Origin: Butyrivibrio sp. | Lineage (GTDB): Bacteria; Bacillota; Clostridia; Lachnospirales; Lachnospiraceae | DNA length: 64,000 nt | Assembly (NCBI GenBank): GCA_024694565.1 | Contig: JAILJR010000118.1 | Location: 27,491 to 91,490, forward strand | Direction: 5' to 3' | In this document: positions 16,759-47,211 of the stretch, in pieces | How the letters are laid out: every line of letters starts with the position of its first letter | Position numbering within the stretch: the first letter of the stretch is position 1 | Translations under genes and position numbers: made by a program | Notes under the pieces: generated by a model | What the model was told of the DNA's origin: nothing | The model's database searches: none | What the model saw: only the letters and a program-made list of their open reading frames with translations

Positions 16759-18252
16759 ATGGAGAACAAAATGAACATATGTCTTTTAAATGATTCTTTT
16801 CCACCGGTTATTGATGGTGTTGTGAATGTAGTTATGAATTATGCAGATATCCTGACCAGGGAGCTTGAATCCAAGGTGGTTGTTGCCACGCCAAAATATC
16901 CCGATGCTTCGTATGATGCCTATCCGTACAGTGTTATTGCATATCCGAGCTTTGATACTACAGATTTCATCAAGGGCTACAGGACAGGAAATCCTCTTTC
17001 TGTCAGGGAAATTGCACAGATAGTGGACCAAAAGCCCCAGATTATACATACCCACTGCCCGGCAGCATCTACTATCATGGCAAGGATTCTAAGAAGCCAG
17101 ACAAGCGCTCCTATTGTCTTTACCTACCACACCAAATTTGATGTGGACATAGCAAGAGCAGTTGGAGAGGGCTTTCTCAAGAAAGAGACAATCAAGGCCA
17201 TGGTCAGCAACATAGAGGGCTGTGATGATGTCTGGGTTGTGTCCGAGGGTGCCGGAGAGAACTTAAGATCCCTTGGCTACGAGGGAGAACTAAGGGTGAT
17301 GCCAAACGGCGTTGATTTCCCAAAGGGAAGAGCCACGCAGAAAATGGTAAAAGATGTGACGCAGGGCGTAGATGTGCCTGAAGGAATACCGGTATTTCTT
17401 TTTGTTGGAAGGATAATACAGTATAAAGGTCTGCCTATGATAATAGATGCCTTGAATGAATTATCAGGTGAAGGCAAAGAGTACCGGATGGTATTTGTCG
17501 GCGGAGGTCCTGACGAGGAGCTTTTGCAGCAAAAGATAAAGAACTATGGGATTGCTCTTGATGTCTATGACGAGAAGGGCGAGGTCACGCACTTTGAATC
17601 ATCAGGAAAAAAGAGTGGAAAGATGATCTTTACGGGACCGGTGCATGACAGGGAAAAGCTTAGGGCCTGGAATACAAGAGCTGATCTGTTTCTTTTCCCA
17701 TCCACCTATGACACCAACGGAATTGTGGTGAGGGAGGCAGCTGCCTGTGGACTTGGAAGTGTTCTGATCAAGGGCTCCTGTGCCGCGGAGGGCATAACAG
17801 ATGGCAGAAACGGATATCTCATAGATGAAAACAGCAGTGCTCTTGCCGGACTGCTTAGAACTGTATGCATGGATCTTGATGGAATGCATCAGGTTGGACA
17901 GCATGCTATGGATGAAATTTACATCTCCTGGTCCAACAGTGTAAGACTTGCTTTTGACAGATACAAGGAATTACTTGAACTTAAAGCTGATGGGCAGCTT
18001 GTTCGCAGAAAGCACCAGAGCTTTGAAAGCCTTATGAGAAATGCAGAGATTGCTCTTGATGGGACACAGCGGGCATTTTTTGAGATGCCAAAACAGTTCC
18101 AGATGGAGATGAAGGATAACCTTGAAGAGCTCAGAAAGGGGCTCTCCGAAAACATAAGCCAGTTCGGAGACATAGTTTCTTCTAACTTTGATAAACTTAA
18201 TGACGGCTTTACGGAAATCAGGGACAAGATAAATGAAAAATTCGAAAACTGA
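16759..18252 (+). CDS. Glycosyltransferase family 4 (diacylglycerol glucosyltransferase-like)
   Basis: MNICLLNDSFPPVIDGVVNVVMNYADIL...RVMPNGVDF...FVGRIIQYKGLPMIIDAL...DLFLFPSTYDTNGIVVREAAACG. Confidence 0.88.
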   Translation: MENKMNICLLNDSFPPVIDGVVNVVMNYADILTRELESKVVVATPKYPDASYDAYPYSVIAYPSFDTTDFIKGYRTGNPLSVREIAQIVDQKPQIIHTHCPAASTIMARILRSQTSAPIVFTYHTKFDVDIARAVGEGFLKKETIKAMVSNIEGCDDVWVVSEGAGENLRSLGYEGELRVMPNGVDFPKGRATQKMVKDVTQGVDVPEGIPVFLFVGRIIQYKGLPMIIDALNELSGEGKEYRMVFVGGGPDEELLQQKIKNYGIALDVYDEKGEVTHFESSGKKSGKMIFTGPVHDREKLRAWNTRADLFLFPSTYDTNGIVVREAAACGLGSVLIKGSCAAEGITDGRNGYLIDENSSALAGLLRTVCMDLDGMHQVGQHAMDEIYISWSNSVRLAFDRYKELLELKADGQLVRRKHQSFESLMRNAEIALDGTQRAFFEMPKQFQMEMKDNLEELRKGLSENISQFGDIVSSNFDKLNDGFTEIRDKINEKFEN

Positions 18253-19972
18253 TAAAAGTGACTGGTATAAGAAGATGAGCTTCTACCAGATATGGGTAAG
18301 GAGCTTTGCAGATGGAAACGGCGATGGAATAGGTGATCTGTACGGAGTCGAACAAAAGCTTGAATATATAAGATCACTGGGAGTTGACGGAATATGGTTT
18401 TCGCCAATTTATCCATCACCTAATGCTGACTTTGGCTATGATATATCGGATTATCGGAATATCCATCCCGACTTTGGAGACCTGGAACAGTTTAAGAAGG
18501 TTCTTAACAGAGCCCATGAGCTTGGACTTAAGGTCATAATGGATCTTGTGGTGAACCACACCTCAGATGAACACCCCTGGTTTATTGAGAGCAGGAAGGG
18601 GAGGGATAATCCATATAGTGATTTTTATATCTGGCGTGATAAACCAAATAACTGGGACAGTCTCTTTGAGGGCAAGGCATGGGAGTATGACGAAAGCAGA
18701 GGACAATACTATCTTCATATCTTTGCAAAAAAACAGCCTGATCTCAACATGGACAACCCAAAGGTCAGGGAAGAAGTCAAAGGCATAATGCGATTTTGGC
18801 TTGATATGGGGGTAGATGGCTTCAGAGAGGACGTAATCAACTTTATCTCCAAGAAGGAGGGGCTGCCCAATGGGATTCCTTTTCTTCCCGCAGTTAATGG
18901 AATGCCCTATTACAAGGACGGACCGCATATTCATGAATATCTTGGAGAGTTTCGAAAGGTCTGTGATGAGTATGACTGCTTTCAGCTGGGCGAGGGGCCG
19001 ATGACTACAGTAAAGTCAGCCATGAAGTATCTGACGGGACCCACAAAATCTCTGGATATGATGTTTTCCTTTGACCACATGATGGCAGACTGCCTCTACA
19101 CTGAGTATATACACAGACCGTTTTCTCTTATCAAGCTGAAGAAGGCCTTCACGAAGTGGCAAAATGCACTTAACGGAAAGGCCTGGAATGCTCTTTATCT
19201 TGAGAACCATGATCATCCCCGGATCATAAGCAGATACGGAAGTCACCATTTCTGGAGAGAGAGCGGGACGATGCTGGCTGCAAGCTATATATTCCAGCAG
19301 GGAACCCCCTTTATATATCAGGGGCAGGAGATTGGCATGACCAACATTAAGCTCATGTCTATCGATCAGTATGTGGATGTGTCCTCTATAACAAACTACA
19401 ATACCTATCACCTGAAGGAAGACCCTGAGAGACGCCTTCACCGCATTCATCTGTCGAGCCGTGACTCCGCCAGAACTCCAATGCAGTGGAACAGCTCTGA
19501 AAATGCCGGATTTTCAGAAGTTAAACCATGGTTTTATGTTAATCCCAATTACAGGAGGATAAATGTTGAAAAGCAGGAGAAGGATGAGAACAGTATCCTG
19601 AACTTTTACAGAAAGTGTCTTGCCCTCAGAAAGAGCACAGATACCCTTATTTACGGAGACTATACCGAACATTTCCCCAAGAATCCTGACATTTATACCT
19701 ATGAGCGCAGTCTTGGGGATGATAGTTATCTCATAATCTGTTCTTTCTCAAGGCTTCCGGTTAAACCCAAAAAGCCCAAAAAATTCTCGGGTAAGCACGG
19801 AGAACTGGTGTTGTGCAATTATCCTAAAAAAATGAACGCACGATCCGGTGACGACAGCGCCGGAAGAAGAGTCATTGATAAAGTGCAGGGAGAATTGGAC
19901 GAGATAGAGTTAAAACATGGCTTTTTCCGGCCTTACGAGGTCAGGGTATACAGATATCGGCTGACCCGATAA
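18233..19972 (+). CDS. GH13 alpha-glucosidase / oligo-1,6-glucosidase-like
   Basis: FYQIWVRSFADGNGDGIGDLYG...VDGIWFSPIYPSPNADFGYDISDY...VMDLVVNHTSDEHPWF...DGFREDVINF; overlaps preceding CDS by 20 bp. Confidence 0.93.
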   Translation: MKNSKTDKSDWYKKMSFYQIWVRSFADGNGDGIGDLYGVEQKLEYIRSLGVDGIWFSPIYPSPNADFGYDISDYRNIHPDFGDLEQFKKVLNRAHELGLKVIMDLVVNHTSDEHPWFIESRKGRDNPYSDFYIWRDKPNNWDSLFEGKAWEYDESRGQYYLHIFAKKQPDLNMDNPKVREEVKGIMRFWLDMGVDGFREDVINFISKKEGLPNGIPFLPAVNGMPYYKDGPHIHEYLGEFRKVCDEYDCFQLGEGPMTTVKSAMKYLTGPTKSLDMMFSFDHMMADCLYTEYIHRPFSLIKLKKAFTKWQNALNGKAWNALYLENHDHPRIISRYGSHHFWRESGTMLAASYIFQQGTPFIYQGQEIGMTNIKLMSIDQYVDVSSITNYNTYHLKEDPERRLHRIHLSSRDSARTPMQWNSSENAGFSEVKPWFYVNPNYRRINVEKQEKDENSILNFYRKCLALRKSTDTLIYGDYTEHFPKNPDIYTYERSLGDDSYLIICSFSRLPVKPKKPKKFSGKHGELVLCNYPKKMNARSGDDSAGRRVIDKVQGELDEIELKHGFFRPYEVRVYRYRLTR

Positions 19973-20161: not shown

Positions 20162-22567
20162 TTATGACACGGCACGATCCTTGATCCAGGTCTTGATGTC
20201 GGAGACTCCGAGAACCTTCACGAAGCGATCACCTGAGGCGATCACGAGGGTAGGAGCCTGCATTATTCCGAATTTTTCTACGAGATCGGGATTTTCATTT
20301 GCATCCAGTGTTTTATAGTTTACGCCGGCCTTGTCAAGTAAGGAGCCTGCAATCTTGCAGTTCGGACAGGTTGTTGTCTTGAACAGCATTACTGTTCCTC
20401 CGTCAACATTGACTGCAGCTTCCTTCGAATCATTATTTGATTTCCTGACAGCAGCCTCGGCAAAATTAATGCTCTTTGGTCCCTCGTGCGTAAGATTGGA
20501 AATTCCTACGTTGTAAACCTTTCTGTCCTTGTACTCCTGAGCCTTGCCGTCATTCCAGTTGGCAACAGGGCGGTAGTAGCCGGTTATGCGGCTGTATACC
20601 TCTGTCTTTGCTCCGCAGCATGGACAGACTGTCTGTTCTCCGGTGAGATATCCGTGCTCTTTACATACTGAGTAGGTCGGTGACATTGTGTAGTAAGGAA
20701 GCTTATAATTTTCTGCAATCTTCCTTACCAGACTTGCAGCTGCCTTCCAGTCGGGAAGCTTTTCACCGAGGAATGCATGGAAAACGGTTCCGGAGGTATA
20801 CAGAGTCTGAAGCTCATCCTGAATGTCCAGAGCAGAGTAGATGTCCTCTGTGTAGCCTACCGGAAGGTGAGATGAGTTTGTATAATACGGAGTTCCGTTC
20901 ATGTTGGCTGTAATGATATCGGGGTAGAGCTCCTTGTCATGCTTTGCAAAGCGATAAGTTGTGGACTCTGCAGGTGTTGCCTCGAGGTTGTAGAGGTCAC
21001 CGTATTTCTCCTGGTAGTCTGACAGACGTTCTCTCATATGATTGAGAACAGCCTTTGAGAACTCTACTGTCTTTTCATTTGTCATGTCGGCACCGATCCA
21101 GTTTGCATTCAGCCCGACTTCATTCATGCCGATAAGGCCGATTGTAGAGAAGTGGTTGGCAAAGGTTCCGAGGTATCTCTTGGTATAAGGGTAAAGACCC
21201 TGATCAAGGAGCTTGGTGATGACCTGTCTCTTGGTATTGAGACTTCTTGCAGCCACATCCATGAGGTGGTCAAGTCTCTTGTAGAAGTCCTCCTCGTCCT
21301 TGGCAAGGTAGGCAATCCTTGGCATATTGATTGTGACTACTCCGATAGAGCCTGTTGACTCGCCGGAACCAAAGAATCCACCGGATTTCTTGCGCAGCTC
21401 CCTGAGGTCAAGGCGAAGTCTGCAGCACATTGAGCGGACATCACTGGGTTCCATGTCGGAATTGATGTAATTTGAGAAGTAAGGTGTGCCGTACTTGGCT
21501 GTCATCTCGAAGAGCAGCTTATTGTTCTCAGTCTCGCTCCAGTCAAAATCACGTGTGATAGAGTATGTGGGGATAGGATACTGGAAGCCTCTTCCGTTGG
21601 CATCGCCCTCGATCATAATCTCGATGAATGCCTTGTTGACCATATCCATTTCCTTCTGACAGTCACCGTATGTGAAATCGAGCTCCTTGCCGCCTACCAG
21701 ACAGTTCTGGTTCTTAAGGTCATTGGGAACGGTCCAGTCAAGAGTGATATTTGAGAAAGGAGCCTGTGTTCCCCAGCGGCTGGGTGTATTTACACCGTAA
21801 ACAAAGGACTGGATACACTGCTTTACCTCATGTTGAGAGAGGTTGTCCACCTTCACAAATGGTGCAAGGTATGTATCAAAGGATGAGAATGCCTGGGCAC
21901 CTGCCCACTCATTCTGCATGATTCCGAGGAAGTTGACCATCTGGTTGCACAGTGTGGACAGATGGCATGCAGGCGAAGATGTGATCTTGCCGGGAACGCC
22001 GCCAAGACCCTCCTGGATCAGCTGCTTGAGGCTCCAGCCTGCACAGTATCCTGTCAGCATTGCAAGATCATGGATATGTATTGCTGCGGTCCTGTGTGCA
22101 TTTGCAACCTCTTCATCATATACTTCTGAAAGCCAGTAATTGGCTGTGATAGCGCCTGAGTTGGACAGAATAAGACCGCCGACAGAATAAGTGACGGTAG
22201 AGTTCTCCTTGACACGCCAGTCGTTGATCTTGAGATAATCATCAACTATATCCTTGTAATTGAGAAGGGCAGAATTGACATTGCGAACCTTCTCGCGCTG
22301 TTTACGATAGAGAATATATGCTTTTGAGACATCAGAATAGCCGGCCTCTGAGAGTACCTTCTCGACGCTGTCCTGAATCTCCTCAACGGTTATTTTGCCA
22401 TCCTTGACCTTTTTCTCAAAATCTGAGGCGACCCTCAGAGAAATAAGATCAATAACGCTTGAGTGATAATCCTTCTCAAGGGCCACAAAGGCCTTTGTTA
22501 TTGCTGCGGAAATCTTGGAAATGTTAAAATCTGCTATGGCTCCATCCCTTTTCACAACCTGATACAT
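20162..22567 (-). CDS. nrdD: Anaerobic ribonucleoside-triphosphate reductase with C-terminal thioredoxin/glutaredoxin-like domain
   Basis: N-terminal ATP-cone (MYQVVKRDGAIADFNISKISAAI), large NrdD core, Cys-rich zinc site, glycyl-radical-like C-terminal segment; then CPNC-containing thioredoxin-like tail (TVMLFKTTTCPNCKIAGSLLDKAGVNYKTLDANENPDLVEKFGIMQAPTLVI). Confidence 0.93.
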   Translation of the reverse strand: MYQVVKRDGAIADFNISKISAAITKAFVALEKDYHSSVIDLISLRVASDFEKKVKDGKITVEEIQDSVEKVLSEAGYSDVSKAYILYRKQREKVRNVNSALLNYKDIVDDYLKINDWRVKENSTVTYSVGGLILSNSGAITANYWLSEVYDEEVANAHRTAAIHIHDLAMLTGYCAGWSLKQLIQEGLGGVPGKITSSPACHLSTLCNQMVNFLGIMQNEWAGAQAFSSFDTYLAPFVKVDNLSQHEVKQCIQSFVYGVNTPSRWGTQAPFSNITLDWTVPNDLKNQNCLVGGKELDFTYGDCQKEMDMVNKAFIEIMIEGDANGRGFQYPIPTYSITRDFDWSETENNKLLFEMTAKYGTPYFSNYINSDMEPSDVRSMCCRLRLDLRELRKKSGGFFGSGESTGSIGVVTINMPRIAYLAKDEEDFYKRLDHLMDVAARSLNTKRQVITKLLDQGLYPYTKRYLGTFANHFSTIGLIGMNEVGLNANWIGADMTNEKTVEFSKAVLNHMRERLSDYQEKYGDLYNLEATPAESTTYRFAKHDKELYPDIITANMNGTPYYTNSSHLPVGYTEDIYSALDIQDELQTLYTSGTVFHAFLGEKLPDWKAAASLVRKIAENYKLPYYTMSPTYSVCKEHGYLTGEQTVCPCCGAKTEVYSRITGYYRPVANWNDGKAQEYKDRKVYNVGISNLTHEGPKSINFAEAAVRKSNNDSKEAAVNVDGGTVMLFKTTTCPNCKIAGSLLDKAGVNYKTLDANENPDLVEKFGIMQAPTLVIASGDRFVKVLGVSDIKTWIKDRAVS

Positions 22568-28366: not shown

Positions 28367-28490
28367 TATTTACATCCATATTATCACGAAGCAGTTTTTT
28401 TTGACACTGAAAGAATAATATGATACTATAACCGAAATGTTGCTTTAGCACATTAAATCGTAAGTGCAGAGCCAGGAGGAGGATTCGAAA

Positions 28491-29729
28491 ATGTATTCAT
28501 TGGAAGAAGTCAGGAAGGTTGATCCACAGATTGCGTCCCTGATAGAGGAAGAGGTTGCCCGTCAGAATGCTCATATTGAGCTGATTGCGTCAGAGAACTG
28601 GACCAGCAAGGCTGTAATGTCAGCTATGGGTAGTCCTTTGACTAACAAGTACGCAGAGGGCCTTCCGGGGAAAAGATATTACGGTGGCTGTCATGTAGTT
28701 GACAAGGTAGAGAACATAGCCATAGAGAGAGCCAAGGAGCTTTTTCACTGTGATTATGCGAATGTTCAGCCACATTCAGGAGCACAGGCTAATCTGGCTG
28801 TACAGTTTGCCCTTTTGAAGCCGGGTGATACCTTTATGGGTATGGATTTAAGCCAGGGCGGACATCTTACACACGGCAGCACAGCCAATATTTCCGGGAC
28901 TTACTACAACATTATTCCGTACGGCGTTGATGATAATGGTATCATCGATTATGATAACATGCTAAAGCTTGCAATCGAGCATAAGCCGAAGCTGATAATT
29001 GCAGGTGCTTCTGCATATTGCAGAACTATAGATTTCAAGAAATTCAGAGAAGCTGCCGATGCATGCGGGGCAGTGCTCATGGTGGATATGGCACATATCG
29101 CCGGGCTTGTGGCTGCCGGTGTTCATCCCAGCCCATTCCCATATGCGGATGTTGTTACCACAACAACTCATAAGACACTTCGCGGTCCTCGTGGCGGAAT
29201 CATTCTCTGGAATCAGGAGGCTCAGGACAAATACAAATTTAACAAGGCAGTTTTCCCGGGAATACAGGGAGGACCTCTTGAGCATGTTGTTGCTGCCAAG
29301 GCGATCTGCTTCAAGGAAGCTCTTTCTCCTGAGTTCAGGGAATATGCCCAAAATGTTGTTGCCAATGCCAAGGCACTCTGCAGCGGCCTGATGAACAGGG
29401 GTATTAAGATTGTATCAGGTGGTACAGACAATCATCTTATGCTGATTGATCTGACTAACTTCGGCCTGACAGGAAAAGAGGTTGAAGCATGGCTTGACGA
29501 TGCTCACATCACTGCCAACAAGAATACTATTCCGAATGAGCAGCAGTCACCATTCGTTACAAGCGGAATCCGTCTGGGCACACCTGCTGTTACTACAAGA
29601 GGAATGAATGAAGAGGATATGGACAGGATCGCAGAGGCAATCTCCATTGTAATTAAGAACAAGGGAGAAAAGAACGATGAGGCCAGGGCAATCATCAGAT
29701 CTCTTACTGATAAGTATCCGCTGGATTAA
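28491..29729 (+). CDS. glyA: Serine hydroxymethyltransferase
   Basis: [40 protein letters not shown]...[17 protein letters not shown]; start ATG 28491 preferred. Confidence 0.97.
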
Positions 29730-29758
29730 ATCTGAAATATAAAAAACAGACAATACAT

Positions 29759-29804
29759 AAAGAATGGATGTTTTGCTTAAGGATGTAAACATCCATTCTT
29801 TTTT
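29759..29804. terminator. Terminator after glyA
   Basis: AAAGAATGGATGTT...AACATCCATTCTTTTTTC; same AGAATGGATG stem as 20061-20106. Confidence 0.88.
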
Positions 29805-29921
29805 CTTATTGGAAAAGAGATAGAATTGTTAGAAAAGAATATAAAAAAATAGACAATTAACAGAAAATAGAACATTATCATAACTAAATTCAAAATACTA
29901 TCAAATTATTTAAAAAATGTG

Positions 29922-29950
29922 TTGACAAATTGAAAGTGAATGCATATAAT
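29922..29950 (+). promoter_or_regulatory. Consensus sigma-A promoter driving the ORF-free region
   Basis: TTGACA (29922-29927), exactly 17 bp spacer, TATAAT (29945-29950). Confidence 0.9.
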
Positions 29951-29956
29951 AAAAAC

Positions 29957-30655
29957 ATAAACAAGAGATACTTATAAGATATCTAAAAAATACTTCTCGC
30001 CACGGTAAATAGAACAAACATAGCCGGGGAGAAAGAAAGGCAGGTACACTCCAAAGGGACATTTAGTTAAAATATAAAGGGAAAGGATGGTACAGACCAC
30101 CAGACTAAGAAGTTAAAGTATTATAAAGGTTACAGAAGTTAAATATTCAAACATGTTTATGTAACGAGTAAACAAGTAGTGATCGTACAGAAAGGCGAGT
30201 CGATCAGAAATTCAAGATGGAATCGATACAACAGAGAGTTATCAATTATGAAAAGTATCGTTCCGGAATCTTATAGATAATCGTCAAGTGAAGAGAGTAT
30301 CCGGAGTATCGATTGAAGAATAAAGTAGAATCGTGAAAGAAGGTTAAGACGATTATCGTTTAGAGCAGATCGGAAGTATAAGAAGTATAAAGAGTTCCGA
30401 TTGAGAAAGTAAAGGTTATAGATATACAATTAAACAATATAAAATATTATAAATAACAGCACTTCAAGTACATGATTGGTGGTTATGGCATCCGTAGAAG
30501 TGATTGCAGCCACAGCATATGAATGCGATAGTTAATGGAAAGATGAGGCTGAGAAGTGGAGGAAGGTCCGTTGGACGTAATAACAATAGAATCAGATGAG
30601 TACTCGGCATGAGGGCAGAAGCAGGTAATATGGATGAAGCTTCTGCCCTATTGTA
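29957..30655 (+). ncRNA. Candidate large structured noncoding RNA (~700 nt), class unassigned; ROOL-like possible
   Basis: No ORF of 60 aa or more in the ORF track; strong promoter upstream; many perfect helices including 30276-30285/30348-30357 (GATAATCGTC/GACGATTATC), 30369-30375/30395-30401, 30224-30229/30255-30260, 30181-30185/30201-30205; ends with an 11-bp perfect stem 30612-30622/30639-30649. Confidence 0.78.
30612..30655 (+). terminator. Terminal hairpin of the candidate ncRNA
   Basis: AGGGCAGAAGC...GCTTCTGCCCT followed by ATTGTATTGT. Confidence 0.75.
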
Positions 30656-30714
30656 TTGTACTTTTTATGTGATAGAATAGGAGAGTGACAAAAGTTTTTG
30701 ATTGATGGGGAAAT

Positions 30715-32010
30715 ATGAGTAAGTTAGACGAACAGGATTTTGATGAAAGAAGGCTGGAACGCAGAAAGAGAAGAAAGCGAAACCAGTTTATTGCGTATAT
30801 AGTTTTTATAATAATTATTGTATTGCTTGTCGGGGCAATAGGGACTTCAATCCACTTTATACATGGGGCAATCGTCAGCAGGAGGCGGGCGATAGATGCT
30901 GCTGAGAAGCTTACGAAGGGAGTAGAGGAGCAGCCTGAAAATATTGTGATCGAGACTCCGGAAAACAGCACGGATGTTGAGGAATACACTCAGGAAGAGG
31001 CAATGACTGATATCGTGGAGAAGGTCATCGGCGATATGACTATTGAGGACAAGGTCGCAGGACTGTTTATTATCAATCCGGAGCAGATTACCGGTGTAGA
31101 GACAGCTGTGAAGGCTGGATCGGGAACACAGGAGGCGCTTTCTAAATATGCAGTTGGCGGAATAGTTTATTCTCCCAAAAATATCAAGTCGGCGGATCAG
31201 ATCAAGGAGATGCTTGTCTCGACAGCGTCCATGAGCAAGTTTCCTCTGTTCACAATTCTTTCTGACAAGGCTCTTTATAATGATCAGGTCATAGAAACTC
31301 TGGGGCTTTCATTGCAGGAAGAGATAACCGATGAGGATACAGCTCACAGTGCAGGTGCAACTATCGGTTCAACGCTGTTCAAATACGGCTTCAACATGGC
31401 TATGTTTCCGGCAAATGATATAAGTGAGAACGGAAAATTTGGTTCTGATGCCGAGTCTGTAAAGCTGCGTGCAACTGCTTTTGCCACAGGACTTCAGCAA
31501 TCCGGAGTATCAGCCTGTGGTTACGCCTTTCCTGTTATGGGAAGTAGTGACGGGGATGTGAACGTTAGCGATAAGACAAGAGATGACCTGGTTGTAGGCG
31601 AATTTGAGGTCTTCAAGAATGCAATAGATTCTAAGGCTATGAATGCTATACGGATGTCAGAATTATCACTTCCGCAGCTGTCAGGTGATGACACTCCGTC
31701 GACACTTTCAGGAACCGTTATTGGTGAGGAGCTAAAGGGTACACTGGGTTATGAAGGAATAGTTATCACTGCACCGCTTGGAGACATTGCGATTTCCGAA
31801 AAATACTCATCAGCAGAAGCAGCAGTTGCTGCCATAATGGCAGGAGCGGATATGATTTATCTGCCCGGTGATTTTACAGAGGCCTATGAGGGAATCCTTC
31901 AGAATATATCGGAAGGCAGGATTACTGAAGAAAGAATCAATGAGTCTATTAGAAAAATAATGGGAATAAAGTATTCTGATCAGGTGAGCCAGATTTCAAC
32001 GTCAAATTAA
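30715..32010 (+). CDS. Membrane-anchored GH3 N-terminal-domain-like protein, apparently catalytically degenerate
   Basis: N-terminal TM; MTIEDKVAGLFIINPEQITG...KYAVGGIVYSPKNIKSADQIKEML...AAIMAGADMIYLPGDF resembles GH3 NagZ-like proteins. Confidence 0.75.
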   Translation: MSKLDEQDFDERRLERRKRRKRNQFIAYIVFIIIIVLLVGAIGTSIHFIHGAIVSRRRAIDAAEKLTKGVEEQPENIVIETPENSTDVEEYTQEEAMTDIVEKVIGDMTIEDKVAGLFIINPEQITGVETAVKAGSGTQEALSKYAVGGIVYSPKNIKSADQIKEMLVSTASMSKFPLFTILSDKALYNDQVIETLGLSLQEEITDEDTAHSAGATIGSTLFKYGFNMAMFPANDISENGKFGSDAESVKLRATAFATGLQQSGVSACGYAFPVMGSSDGDVNVSDKTRDDLVVGEFEVFKNAIDSKAMNAIRMSELSLPQLSGDDTPSTLSGTVIGEELKGTLGYEGIVITAPLGDIAISEKYSSAEAAVAAIMAGADMIYLPGDFTEAYEGILQNISEGRITEERINESIRKIMGIKYSDQVSQISTSN

Positions 32011-33181: not shown

Positions 33182-33994
33182 TCAGGAGTCCATAGAGCCG
33201 GGTTTGATGCTGTATATTTTGGGCGAAATCCTGAGCCTTAAGTATATTTCTGCATACTGGGAAGCCGAAAGCTCCTCAACATAGTTTAGCTGGAAGTTTT
33301 TTTTGATTCCGTTTTTGATGAGGATATCTGCAGCCTTGTTGTAGGCAATTGCAGCTTCGGCCTCTGTGTTGTACTTGCCGACTACGTAATTGCTCCTCAG
33401 ATGAATAACTGCCTTGTACTTTATGAAGCCTTTTTCTGCAAACTGCATCACACCCCTGTATCTGTTAAGGATAATGACGTTTTCATAGCGAAGATCGTTG
33501 CGGTCGTCGTTGGCAAAGCGGTAGTCTCTTCCCTCGACTGCGTAGCTCTTTATTCCGTAGCGCTGAAGAATGGAAAGCTGGCTTCCGTAATCGGCTACAA
33601 AGAGATGGTTGCCACGTATCATTATCTTATGAGAGGAGTAGTAGAACAGATCATCGATATCAAATTTGAGAATGTGGGTGGGGGACAGGTAGTATAAAAA
33701 GTATTTTTTTTCAAGATAAATCGGGTTGGAAATATACATCCCCTTGTCACGGAAGTTTATGAGAGAAATTCCCTTTTCAAAAGGAAGTGACATGGTATCG
33801 CAAAGGGAAGAAATGACAAATTCAGGGCTTTTTAGTATCATCAAAGCTTCCTCATAGGCTTTGGCTGCAGCGTCCATCTCATTAAAGCTTCCAAGGGAAA
33901 TATGCCTTCCTCTGTAGGTGACTGACGCCCTATAGGAGGGAGTTCCATCCTTCAATGCAGTTATATATACTCCTGTTGTGTTTTTTTTGCCCAT
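33182..33994 (-). CDS. AP2-domain protein (two AP2-like domains flanking a degenerate HNH-like segment)
   Basis: N-terminal TGVYITALKDGTPSYRASVTYRGRHISLGSFNEMDAAAKAYEEA and C-terminal KGFIKYKAVIHLRSNYVVGKYNTEAEAAIAYNKAADIL both fit AP2; middle DYRFANDDRNDLRYENVIILNRYRGV resembles the HNH 'N.R.NL..V...N' tail. Confidence 0.7.
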   Translation of the reverse strand: MGKKNTTGVYITALKDGTPSYRASVTYRGRHISLGSFNEMDAAAKAYEEALMILKSPEFVISSLCDTMSLPFEKGISLINFRDKGMYISNPIYLEKKYFLYYLSPTHILKFDIDDLFYYSSHKIMIRGNHLFVADYGSQLSILQRYGIKSYAVEGRDYRFANDDRNDLRYENVIILNRYRGVMQFAEKGFIKYKAVIHLRSNYVVGKYNTEAEAAIAYNKAADILIKNGIKKNFQLNYVEELSASQYAEIYLRLRISPKIYSIKPGSMDS

Positions 33995-34095
33995 TTTCCC
34001 ACCAAAAAGATGCATTTTTATGATATTATTTTATATGATATGTTTGCTATAAGTCAAAGCCGTTAACATGGCTAATTTTATTTGGAGGAGCAGCA

Positions 34096-46000: not shown

Positions 46001-46195
46001 TAAGAACCAGACGTCAGGTTATCCTGGAATGCTCGACACCTCCTGTGTAATTTGAACCTACATTACTTTAAACGGGACTCCTACATTGCCTATAGGATTG
46101 TCACGCCTCCGGCCCTGCGTATACGCAGACAAGCTTTGGGAGAGGAAGGCAGGAATTTAGGTTGCGGTAACCCACCTGGCGTTAGCTAGGAGTCA
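46001..46195 (+). ncRNA. ssrS: 6S RNA (SsrS) candidate
   Basis: Promoter TTGAAA-16-TATAAT (45967-45994); ORF-free; rod-like closing pair ACGTCAGGTT/AACCCACCTGGCGT and ACTTTAAACGGGACTCCTACATTGCC central region reminiscent of clostridial 6S RNA. Confidence 0.75.
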
Positions 46196-46238
46196 AATAA
46201 CAGGAAACGGCATTTTGGGATTCATTTCAGGAAATTAA

Positions 46239-46293: not shown

Positions 46294-47211
46294 ATGAAGT
46301 TGATTATCAGGCTTATCGCCCTGGGCAGGGAGTTTTCCGTAAGAATGCAGCAGAAGCATATACCTGATTTTTCTGCCAGCTGCACCTATTTTCTCGTAAT
46401 ATCCATTATCCCCCTCCTTATTCTTATAACATCGCTTTTGCCGTATACTGCCATTTCTGAGGCAGATCTTTATAATGCCGTCATGGAGATTGCCCCGGAT
46501 TTTTCCGGCGAAATCGTAAGAAATCTCATTGATGAAGCTTACATGCAGTCTGTTGCTGTCTTCTCAATTTCTGCGCTGACAACCATATGGGCCGGAGCCC
46601 AGGGAATGCTTGCAATGATAAGGGGGCTTAACAGTATCTATGATGTTGAGGAGAAAAGAAATTATTTTCATTTGCGGATAATAGCATCCTTTTATACTGT
46701 GACAATGATCATTATGATCATGATAATGCTTCTTATAATGGTTTTTGAAAAACAGCTGCGGGCTTTAACACTTGATTATGTTCCTGAACTGGCATTCTTT
46801 TTTTCGGTTTCATCGTACTTTAAGTTTTTGCTTGTCATTCTGCTGGCCACGCTGTCCTTTGCGCTCATATACACCTTTATTCCCAGCGCAAAGATGGTAT
46901 TTGTTTACCAGCTGCCGGGTGCAGTGTTTTCGGCTGTTGTCTGGTACATTTTTTCATGGCTGTTTTCAATATACGTCAACTATCCGGGAACCTTTACAGC
47001 CTATGGCAGTATTGCGACTCCGCTGGTATTGATGATATGGATGTATTTCTGCGTCTATATTTTCATGATAGGAGCGCTGATAAACCAGTTTTTCCATCCG
47101 GCAGTGAAGCTTCTCTATGACGACCATCACAGGAAGACAGTTCATAAAAATGTGAAGAAAAAGAGTACTCAAAGGCTAAGAAAGCCAAGAAAATATAATG
47201 AATTTGGGTGA
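46294..47211 (+). CDS. YihY/BrkB family membrane protein
   Basis: FSASCTYFLVISIIPLLILITSLLPY...WAGAQGMLAMIRGLNSIYDVEEKRNYFHLR...FTAYGSIATPLVLMIWMYFCVYIFMIGALIN. Confidence 0.92.
   Translation: MKLIIRLIALGREFSVRMQQKHIPDFSASCTYFLVISIIPLLILITSLLPYTAISEADLYNAVMEIAPDFSGEIVRNLIDEAYMQSVAVFSISALTTIWAGAQGMLAMIRGLNSIYDVEEKRNYFHLRIIASFYTVTMIIMIMIMLLIMVFEKQLRALTLDYVPELAFFFSVSSYFKFLLVILLATLSFALIYTFIPSAKMVFVYQLPGAVFSAVVWYIFSWLFSIYVNYPGTFTAYGSIATPLVLMIWMYFCVYIFMIGALINQFFHPAVKLLYDDHHRKTVHKNVKKKSTQRLRKPRKYNEFG

Follow-up and report, generated by a model that had tools for sequence, protein, structure and literature searches.

Genomic setting and boundaries of the RNA unit

The window, a stretch of 64,000 nucleotides from a Butyrivibrio sp. 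genome, carries a transcription unit of ~705 nt (29957..30665, plus strand), the ends of which were placed from its promoter and terminator. The unit lies between glyA (28464..29729, plus strand), the upstream neighbour in Butyrivibrio, and the gene of a membrane-anchored GH3 (NagZ-like) glycosidase (30715..32010, plus strand), the usual downstream neighbour; the name of the former and the family name of the latter were assigned by reading. A sigma-A type promoter, TTGACA-17-TATAAT (29922..29950, plus strand), matches the consensus at 12 of 12 positions, exactly as the first-pass annotation had read it, and was the sole such site in a scan of the region. The 11-bp closing hairpin of the same annotation is a terminator-type stem (arms 30612-30622 and 30639-30649) followed by a U-rich tail, forming an intrinsic terminator at 30612..30669 on the plus strand. 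Folding of the unit's strand gave -148 kcal/mol compared with -128 in shuffles (z = -2.9) and was better than 20 of 20 dinucleotide shuffles. The ~700 bp had been described as free of ORFs, which holds insofar as the longest plus-strand ORF has 33 codons, but not for a 13-codon frame running from TTG 30571 to TGA 30612, the position of which is conserved in nearly all lineages examined. Just past the terminator, an extended -10 motif (TGATAGAAT, 30670..30678, plus strand) likely serves the downstream gene; such a motif was found in 23 of 38 lineages, compared with 25% in shuffles.

Two further features of the window were observed in passing. A terminator-like hairpin (AAAGAATGGATG...CATCCATTCTTT) lies 3' of glyA (~29758-29800) and is repeated between the convergent genes at 18233-19972 (plus strand) and 20162-22567 (minus strand). 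On the minus strand, 33182-34015 encodes a 277-aa protein with repeats that resemble, by eye, a bacterial AP2-like domain.

Homologs and their distribution

A BLASTN search for homologous intergenic regions, as the annotation had proposed, returned homologs from 49 of 99 relatives, which with few exceptions belong to Butyrivibrio. The homology consists of two blocks, one 5' and one 3', and the middle of the window copy is absent or different. The window RNA measures ~700 nt rather than ~400 nt because of a lineage-specific insert of ~310 nt (30128..30440, plus strand), which is missing or unrelated in most homologs; these are usually ~400 nt long (mostly 390-470 nt, and 290-360 nt in other genera). 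Model R2 matched in 63 of 79 genus genomes (42 of the 47 good ones), and model R3 recovered most of the remaining well-assembled ones. Among 397 Lachnospiraceae genomes, R3 found the RNA in 23 genomes of 22 genera outside the genus at E <= 2e-6, with weak R1 matches in other genera (G375, G400, G394 and others) and L237/L238 left out of the accepted homologs. Furthermore, a degenerate DNA pattern searched in 85,462 species returned Butyrivibrio and about ten other Lachnospiraceae genomes, and the matches outside the genus were corroborated by the models and by the promoter and terminator. All 46 full genus copies first extracted have a TTGACA..TATAAT/TATACT promoter with 11-12 of 12 matches, as do 16 further copies. 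Outside the genus, promoters match at 10-12 of 12 positions where the region is complete, and one copy has none by the scan used.

In nearly all genus copies with complete flanks, glyA, the RNA and GH3 lie in this order on the same strand. Outside the genus, a GH3 homolog lies downstream in 15 of 23 copies, 2 more end at a contig edge, and GH3 is not adjacent in roughly one third of the copies. The upstream gene differs among these copies, being glyA, aspartokinase or others. Copies without GH3 have sufC-like, LytTR-like or other neighbours (named by eye), and in L117-L119 neither glyA nor GH3 stands alongside. One genome, L248 (G542), gives two matches ~750 nt apart, a tandem second RNA copy in which the micro-ORF is reduced to MG* and the terminator is not recognised; this copy is possibly a decaying duplicate.

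Conserved fold and covariation

The helix P1 (CUUCUC/GAGAAAG, 29993..30035, plus strand) shows both-side changes among UA, AU, GC and CG at column pairs 11-45, 12-44 and 13-43 of alignment A2. In the 3' domain, the helix Pa (30457..30551, plus strand), identified by the swap test and by covariation, pairs CAGC..CUUC with 3' partners in 30542-30551. It encloses AGUA (30467-30470) opposite GAA (30538-30540), an arrangement that appears to resemble the bulged-G/loop-E module, and is followed in order by a CAU/AUG helix, hairpin Pb (GUGGUU/AGCCAC, 30479..30513, plus strand), which was identified by covariation, and hairpin Pc (GCAU-AUGA-AUGC, 30515..30526, plus strand). Across lineages Pa takes the forms GUUC/GAAC, GCUU/AAGC, GUAAUC/GAUUAC and CGUUUAC/GUAACG, Pb the forms GUGGUU/AACCAC, GUAGUG/CACUAC, GUAAUG/CAUUAC and GUAGCG/CGCUAC, and Pc in homologs the forms GUAC/GUAC, GUGCC/GGCAC and GCUU/AAGC. 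The palindromic GUAC is enriched in the RNA (78 observed, 24 expected).

Covariation among homologs, which the annotation had named as a check, is borne out for the conserved helices across deep lineages. When each lineage's own strands were compared with strands exchanged between lineages, the own pair was better for both Pa (p < 5e-5) and Pb (p = 0.005). In 18 deep-lineage rows, 90.6% of the cells are paired versus 28-42% with slid partners, both-side changes occur in 11 of 18 pairs, and 0 of 500 shuffles attain the observed paired percentage or covariation score, the structure having been derived partly from the same deep-lineage sequences. An all-pairs phylogeny-aware test within the genus alone, which has no power, gave one pair at E = 0.06 and none at <= 0.05. 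The complementary segments that had been listed for the interior all exist, but most of the inner stems (30129 to ~30401) fall inside the insert and are hence lineage-specific; of the listed stems, GTCC/GGAC (30566/30573) and the terminator alone show conservation. One listed pair, CACTTC/GAAGTG (30460-30465/30497-30502), conflicts with the conserved fold, where 30462-30465 faces 30542-30547.

A micro-ORF that ends on the terminator

The 13-codon frame is a micro-ORF (MDVITIESDEYSA, TTG..TGA, 30571..30612, plus strand) that was identified by a comparative frame test. A Shine-Dalgarno sequence GGAGG (30558..30562, plus strand), read from the 3' ends of homologs, precedes it, and the start codon sits in a conserved hairpin GUCC-GUU-GGAC (30566..30576, plus strand), which has the form GUCC-NUU-GGAC across the family. 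The first paired base of the terminator stem (30612) is the final base of the stop codon. The same layout recurs at the 3' ends of homologs: GGAGG, 7-9 nt, a start codon TTG, ATG or GTG, and a stop codon in frame that lies on the stem of the terminator. Among 32 lineages, which are related and hence give counts that are not fully independent, the first in-frame stop falls -3 to +7 nt from the stem start in 30, compared with 5 for each of the other frames, and the start codon is TTG in 25, ATG in 6 and GTG in 1. By way of background, 4 of the 24 genes compared in this window have a stem that starts no later than +1 after the stop, the median distance over the genes being 16; what makes the placement of the stop on the stem stand out is mainly that it persists while the length of the final ORF varies from 5 to 23 codons. 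These comparisons make it very probable that the micro-ORF is translated.

The peptide itself is another matter. Predicted products elsewhere include MDSEV, MDSIV, MDSVV, METDF, MDTSFK, MDEVMK, MGSEIITESL, MKPTL and MEYEE, among others; start and stop are conserved and the second residue is acidic in most copies. No synonymous excess is present in the micro-ORF frame (65 synonymous to 666 nonsynonymous changes, versus 152/551 and 354/452 in the other two frames), and conservation therefore does not concern the peptide. No regulatory codon run was seen in the micro-ORFs, and their peptide sequence is not conserved. The annotation had considered that homologs might instead carry a conserved protein-coding frame, and this proved half right: a conserved 3' frame exists, whose translation is deduced by comparison, but it spans only 2-23 codons over all micro-ORFs and has no conserved peptide, so we regard the locus as a structured RNA with a micro-ORF and not as a protein gene. 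A protein gene read through a frameshift was rejected, as no long conserved frame is present. An upstream start at the AUG of AUGGAA (30535) was rejected as well: it meets an immediate stop in most lineages, and the AUG/CAU helix with the AGUA/GAA module explains these bases better. Near the end of the micro-ORF, GUACUCGG (30600-30607) is nucleotide-invariant in the main Butyrivibrio clade, which may point to a motif of the RNA and not of the peptide.

Tandem minigenes and degenerate start sites

Six genus genomes with no or only a weak R2 match (L262-L267) carry two to four complete units of Shine-Dalgarno, start and stop. The units read GGAGGUACAGUCCA-AUG-GAU-CGU-UAG, GGAGGGCAGUCCG-AUG-GAC-ACG-UAA, -AUG-GAU-UAG and -AUG-GAA-UAG, their predicted 2-3-codon products being MD*, ME*, MDR*, MDT* and MGR*, and the last unit is a 14-16-codon ORF on the terminator. 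Two motifs near the 5' end of the window RNA appear to be relatives of this unit that lack the start codon. The motif m1 (GGUACACUCCAAAGGGA, 30043..30059, plus strand) is a degenerate SD-start unit with AAG at the place of the start codon, as read from alignment A2, the comparison with the intact units of L262-L267 and a frame count; m2 (GGUACAGACCACC, 30089..30101, plus strand) is an SD-like copy without a start codon that has the GUAC/GGA pair with m1. An in-frame stop occurs at codon 3 or 4 in 55 of 59 m1 copies, which are closely related; the first stop of the window's m1 is at codon 8. In L016 (G026), GUAC of m2 is changed to GUAA and the 3' GGAC to GUAC, and the two changes are possibly linked.

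Comparison with known RNA families

None of the 4227 models of Rfam 15, ROOL, GOLLD and OLE included, matches the unit (the window at gathering thresholds; 29700-30900 at E <= 5), and the homologous copies that were scanned likewise gave no Rfam family. The suggestion that this is a ROOL-type RNA did not hold: RF03087 was matched neither in the window, whatever the threshold used, nor in the whole genome at E <= 1, control genomes being likewise silent, and the setting is chromosomal, neither a prophage nor a tRNA island. ROOL and GOLLD are phage or prophage RNAs near tRNA islands that form cages (PMC12286853). With ROOL, GOLLD and OLE the present RNA shares a structured length of several hundred nucleotides and the lack of a large ORF; it differs from them in having no covariance-model match, in lying, in Butyrivibrio, between housekeeping genes, and in carrying a micro-ORF. 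A phage origin was rejected, as the 3' motif has 0 matches in viral contigs, though the pattern is strict. A diverged RNase P, tmRNA, SRP or 6S RNA was rejected too, the genome having all of these elsewhere (RNase P A-type, 308 bits; 6S, 46018-46225). The 6S RNA (plus strand, 66.7 bits) lies just 5' of the gene at 46294.

The literature searched, including two genome-wide RNA surveys whose text mentions neither Butyrivibrio nor Lachnospiraceae, glyA or hexosaminidase, holds no description of this RNA; a 2017 survey of 224 candidate RNAs was outside this scope, and an earlier description there is possible. The alternative offered by the first-pass annotation, an undescribed structured RNA class, stands as regards the RNA's own promoter and terminator, its covariation and its lack of an Rfam family, but not as regards a purely noncoding nature, given the 3' micro-ORF. 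Collectively, we are nearly certain from the comparative sequence data that this is a real structured RNA family of Lachnospiraceae.

The nearest known kind is the attenuator leader. A short ORF, judged by comparative evidence to be translated, stands before an intrinsic terminator as in leader-peptide attenuators, and the RNA shares with trpL-type attenuators its own promoter, a strong Shine-Dalgarno sequence and, usually, a downstream gene. Unlike in trpL-type attenuators, the reading frame stops on the terminator itself, shows neither a run of regulatory codons nor a conserved peptide, and comes after 250-700 nt of RNA that share a conserved fold; unlike in leader-peptide attenuators, the gene downstream varies (GH3 in 15 of the 23 copies from other genera) and is often preceded by a promoter of its own. 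Minigenes of the phage lambda bar type consist of a Shine-Dalgarno sequence, a start, 2-3 sense codons and a stop. The tandem units of L262-L267 have the same composition, but lie inside a structured chromosomal RNA, with hairpin-held starts and up to four repeats, and are conserved across genera. TwoAYGGAY and CsrB-type RNAs are likewise clostridial structured RNAs with GGA in loops; GGA is not enriched here, and the TwoAYGGAY RNA at L229 (1162-1327, plus strand, 107 bits) is a separate element on the opposite strand, ~550 nt past the promoter of the G480 homolog.

Possible modes of action

The features above suggest an RNA whose task is to capture or sense ribosomes, not to encode a protein. 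We tentatively favour, as a plausible reading, a structured regulatory RNA, transcribed as a unit of its own, that displays start sites to ribosomes and is gated by them. The frequency of initiation on the micro-ORF would depend on the fold upstream of it or on a factor that recognises the repeated GGUACnGUCC, and a ribosome reaching its stop codon would have to open the terminator stem. During transcription, the opened stem may let more transcription continue into the following gene, in most cases that of the GH3 glycosidase; after transcription, it may expose the 3' end of the RNA and change its stability. The selected property would be the act of translation, not the peptide.

Several other explanations were weighed. 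The strong constitutive promoter and the terminator form the usual attenuator layout, and GH3 lies directly downstream on the same strand in nearly all genus copies and in 15 of 23 others despite a differing upstream gene, which would fit a cis-acting, translation-coupled attenuator of GH3, where the fold responds to a metabolite or protein and translation of the micro-ORF decides terminator bypass. We consider this somewhat unlikely: copies of the RNA exist where GH3 is missing, 23 of 38 lineages have an extended -10 behind the terminator, and a five-codon ORF would need a ribosome to load within the time RNA polymerase takes for ~40 nt. Transcription-translation coupling in Clostridia is debated. 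The 3-4 tandem minigenes of 2-3 codons in L262-L267, and the SD-like degenerate m1 and m2 elsewhere, bring to mind a ribosome decoy whose minigenes trap ribosomes at initiation or cause peptidyl-tRNA drop-off, damping translation or sensing free ribosomes in trans. Its independence of the neighbouring gene and of a conserved peptide suits the data, but most lineages have a single intact unit and the rest of the elaborate fold is left unexplained, which makes a decoy unlikely.

The remaining explanations fare worse. In a purely noncoding scaffold or RNA-only assembly resembling ROOL, GOLLD or OLE, the micro-ORF would be a by-product of the GUCC-NUU-GGAC hairpin and the terminator; the structure, the excess of GUAC and the lack of an obvious protein partner nearby are consistent with it, but the frame test, the alternation of start codons, the tandem minigenes and the lack of an Rfam match render it quite improbable. 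That the RNA serves as the messenger for a functional micropeptide and is mostly a long structured 5' UTR is very improbable, since products of 2-23 residues with no conserved sequence and no synonymous excess speak against it, even though start, stop and the acidic second residue are conserved in most copies. A CsrB-like sponge for CsrA, a protein that the genus does have, is extremely improbable: GGA occurs 208 times against 192 expected, the presence of CsrA does not separate the genomes, and the scanned RNA copies match no Rfam CsrA-binding family.

Returning to the ribosome-gated RNA, control of readthrough into GH3 cannot be all that it does, because an own -10 is frequent downstream and roughly one in three copies from other genera lacks an adjacent GH3. 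For the same reasons, the extended -10 and the survival of the RNA without GH3, we retain a trans or ribosome-sensing role, which appears as likely as plain cis attenuation. Attenuator RNAs and their peptides can work in trans, as rnTrpL and peTrpL do (PMC7298713). A broader proposal, possible but held with more reserve, is a new bacterial RNA class made of arrays of hairpin-held starts with strong Shine-Dalgarno sequences and frames of 2-23 codons, the last locked to the terminator, in which ribosome availability or initiation would be read out as RNA fate or readthrough. The family spans a dominant bacterial family of the gut and rumen, has no Rfam entry, and combines in an unusual way an elaborate covarying fold, start sites with scant coding content and a terminator tied to a stop codon. 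If the ribosome gating is true, it would offer a natural sensor by which translation initiation in Clostridia can be tested directly.
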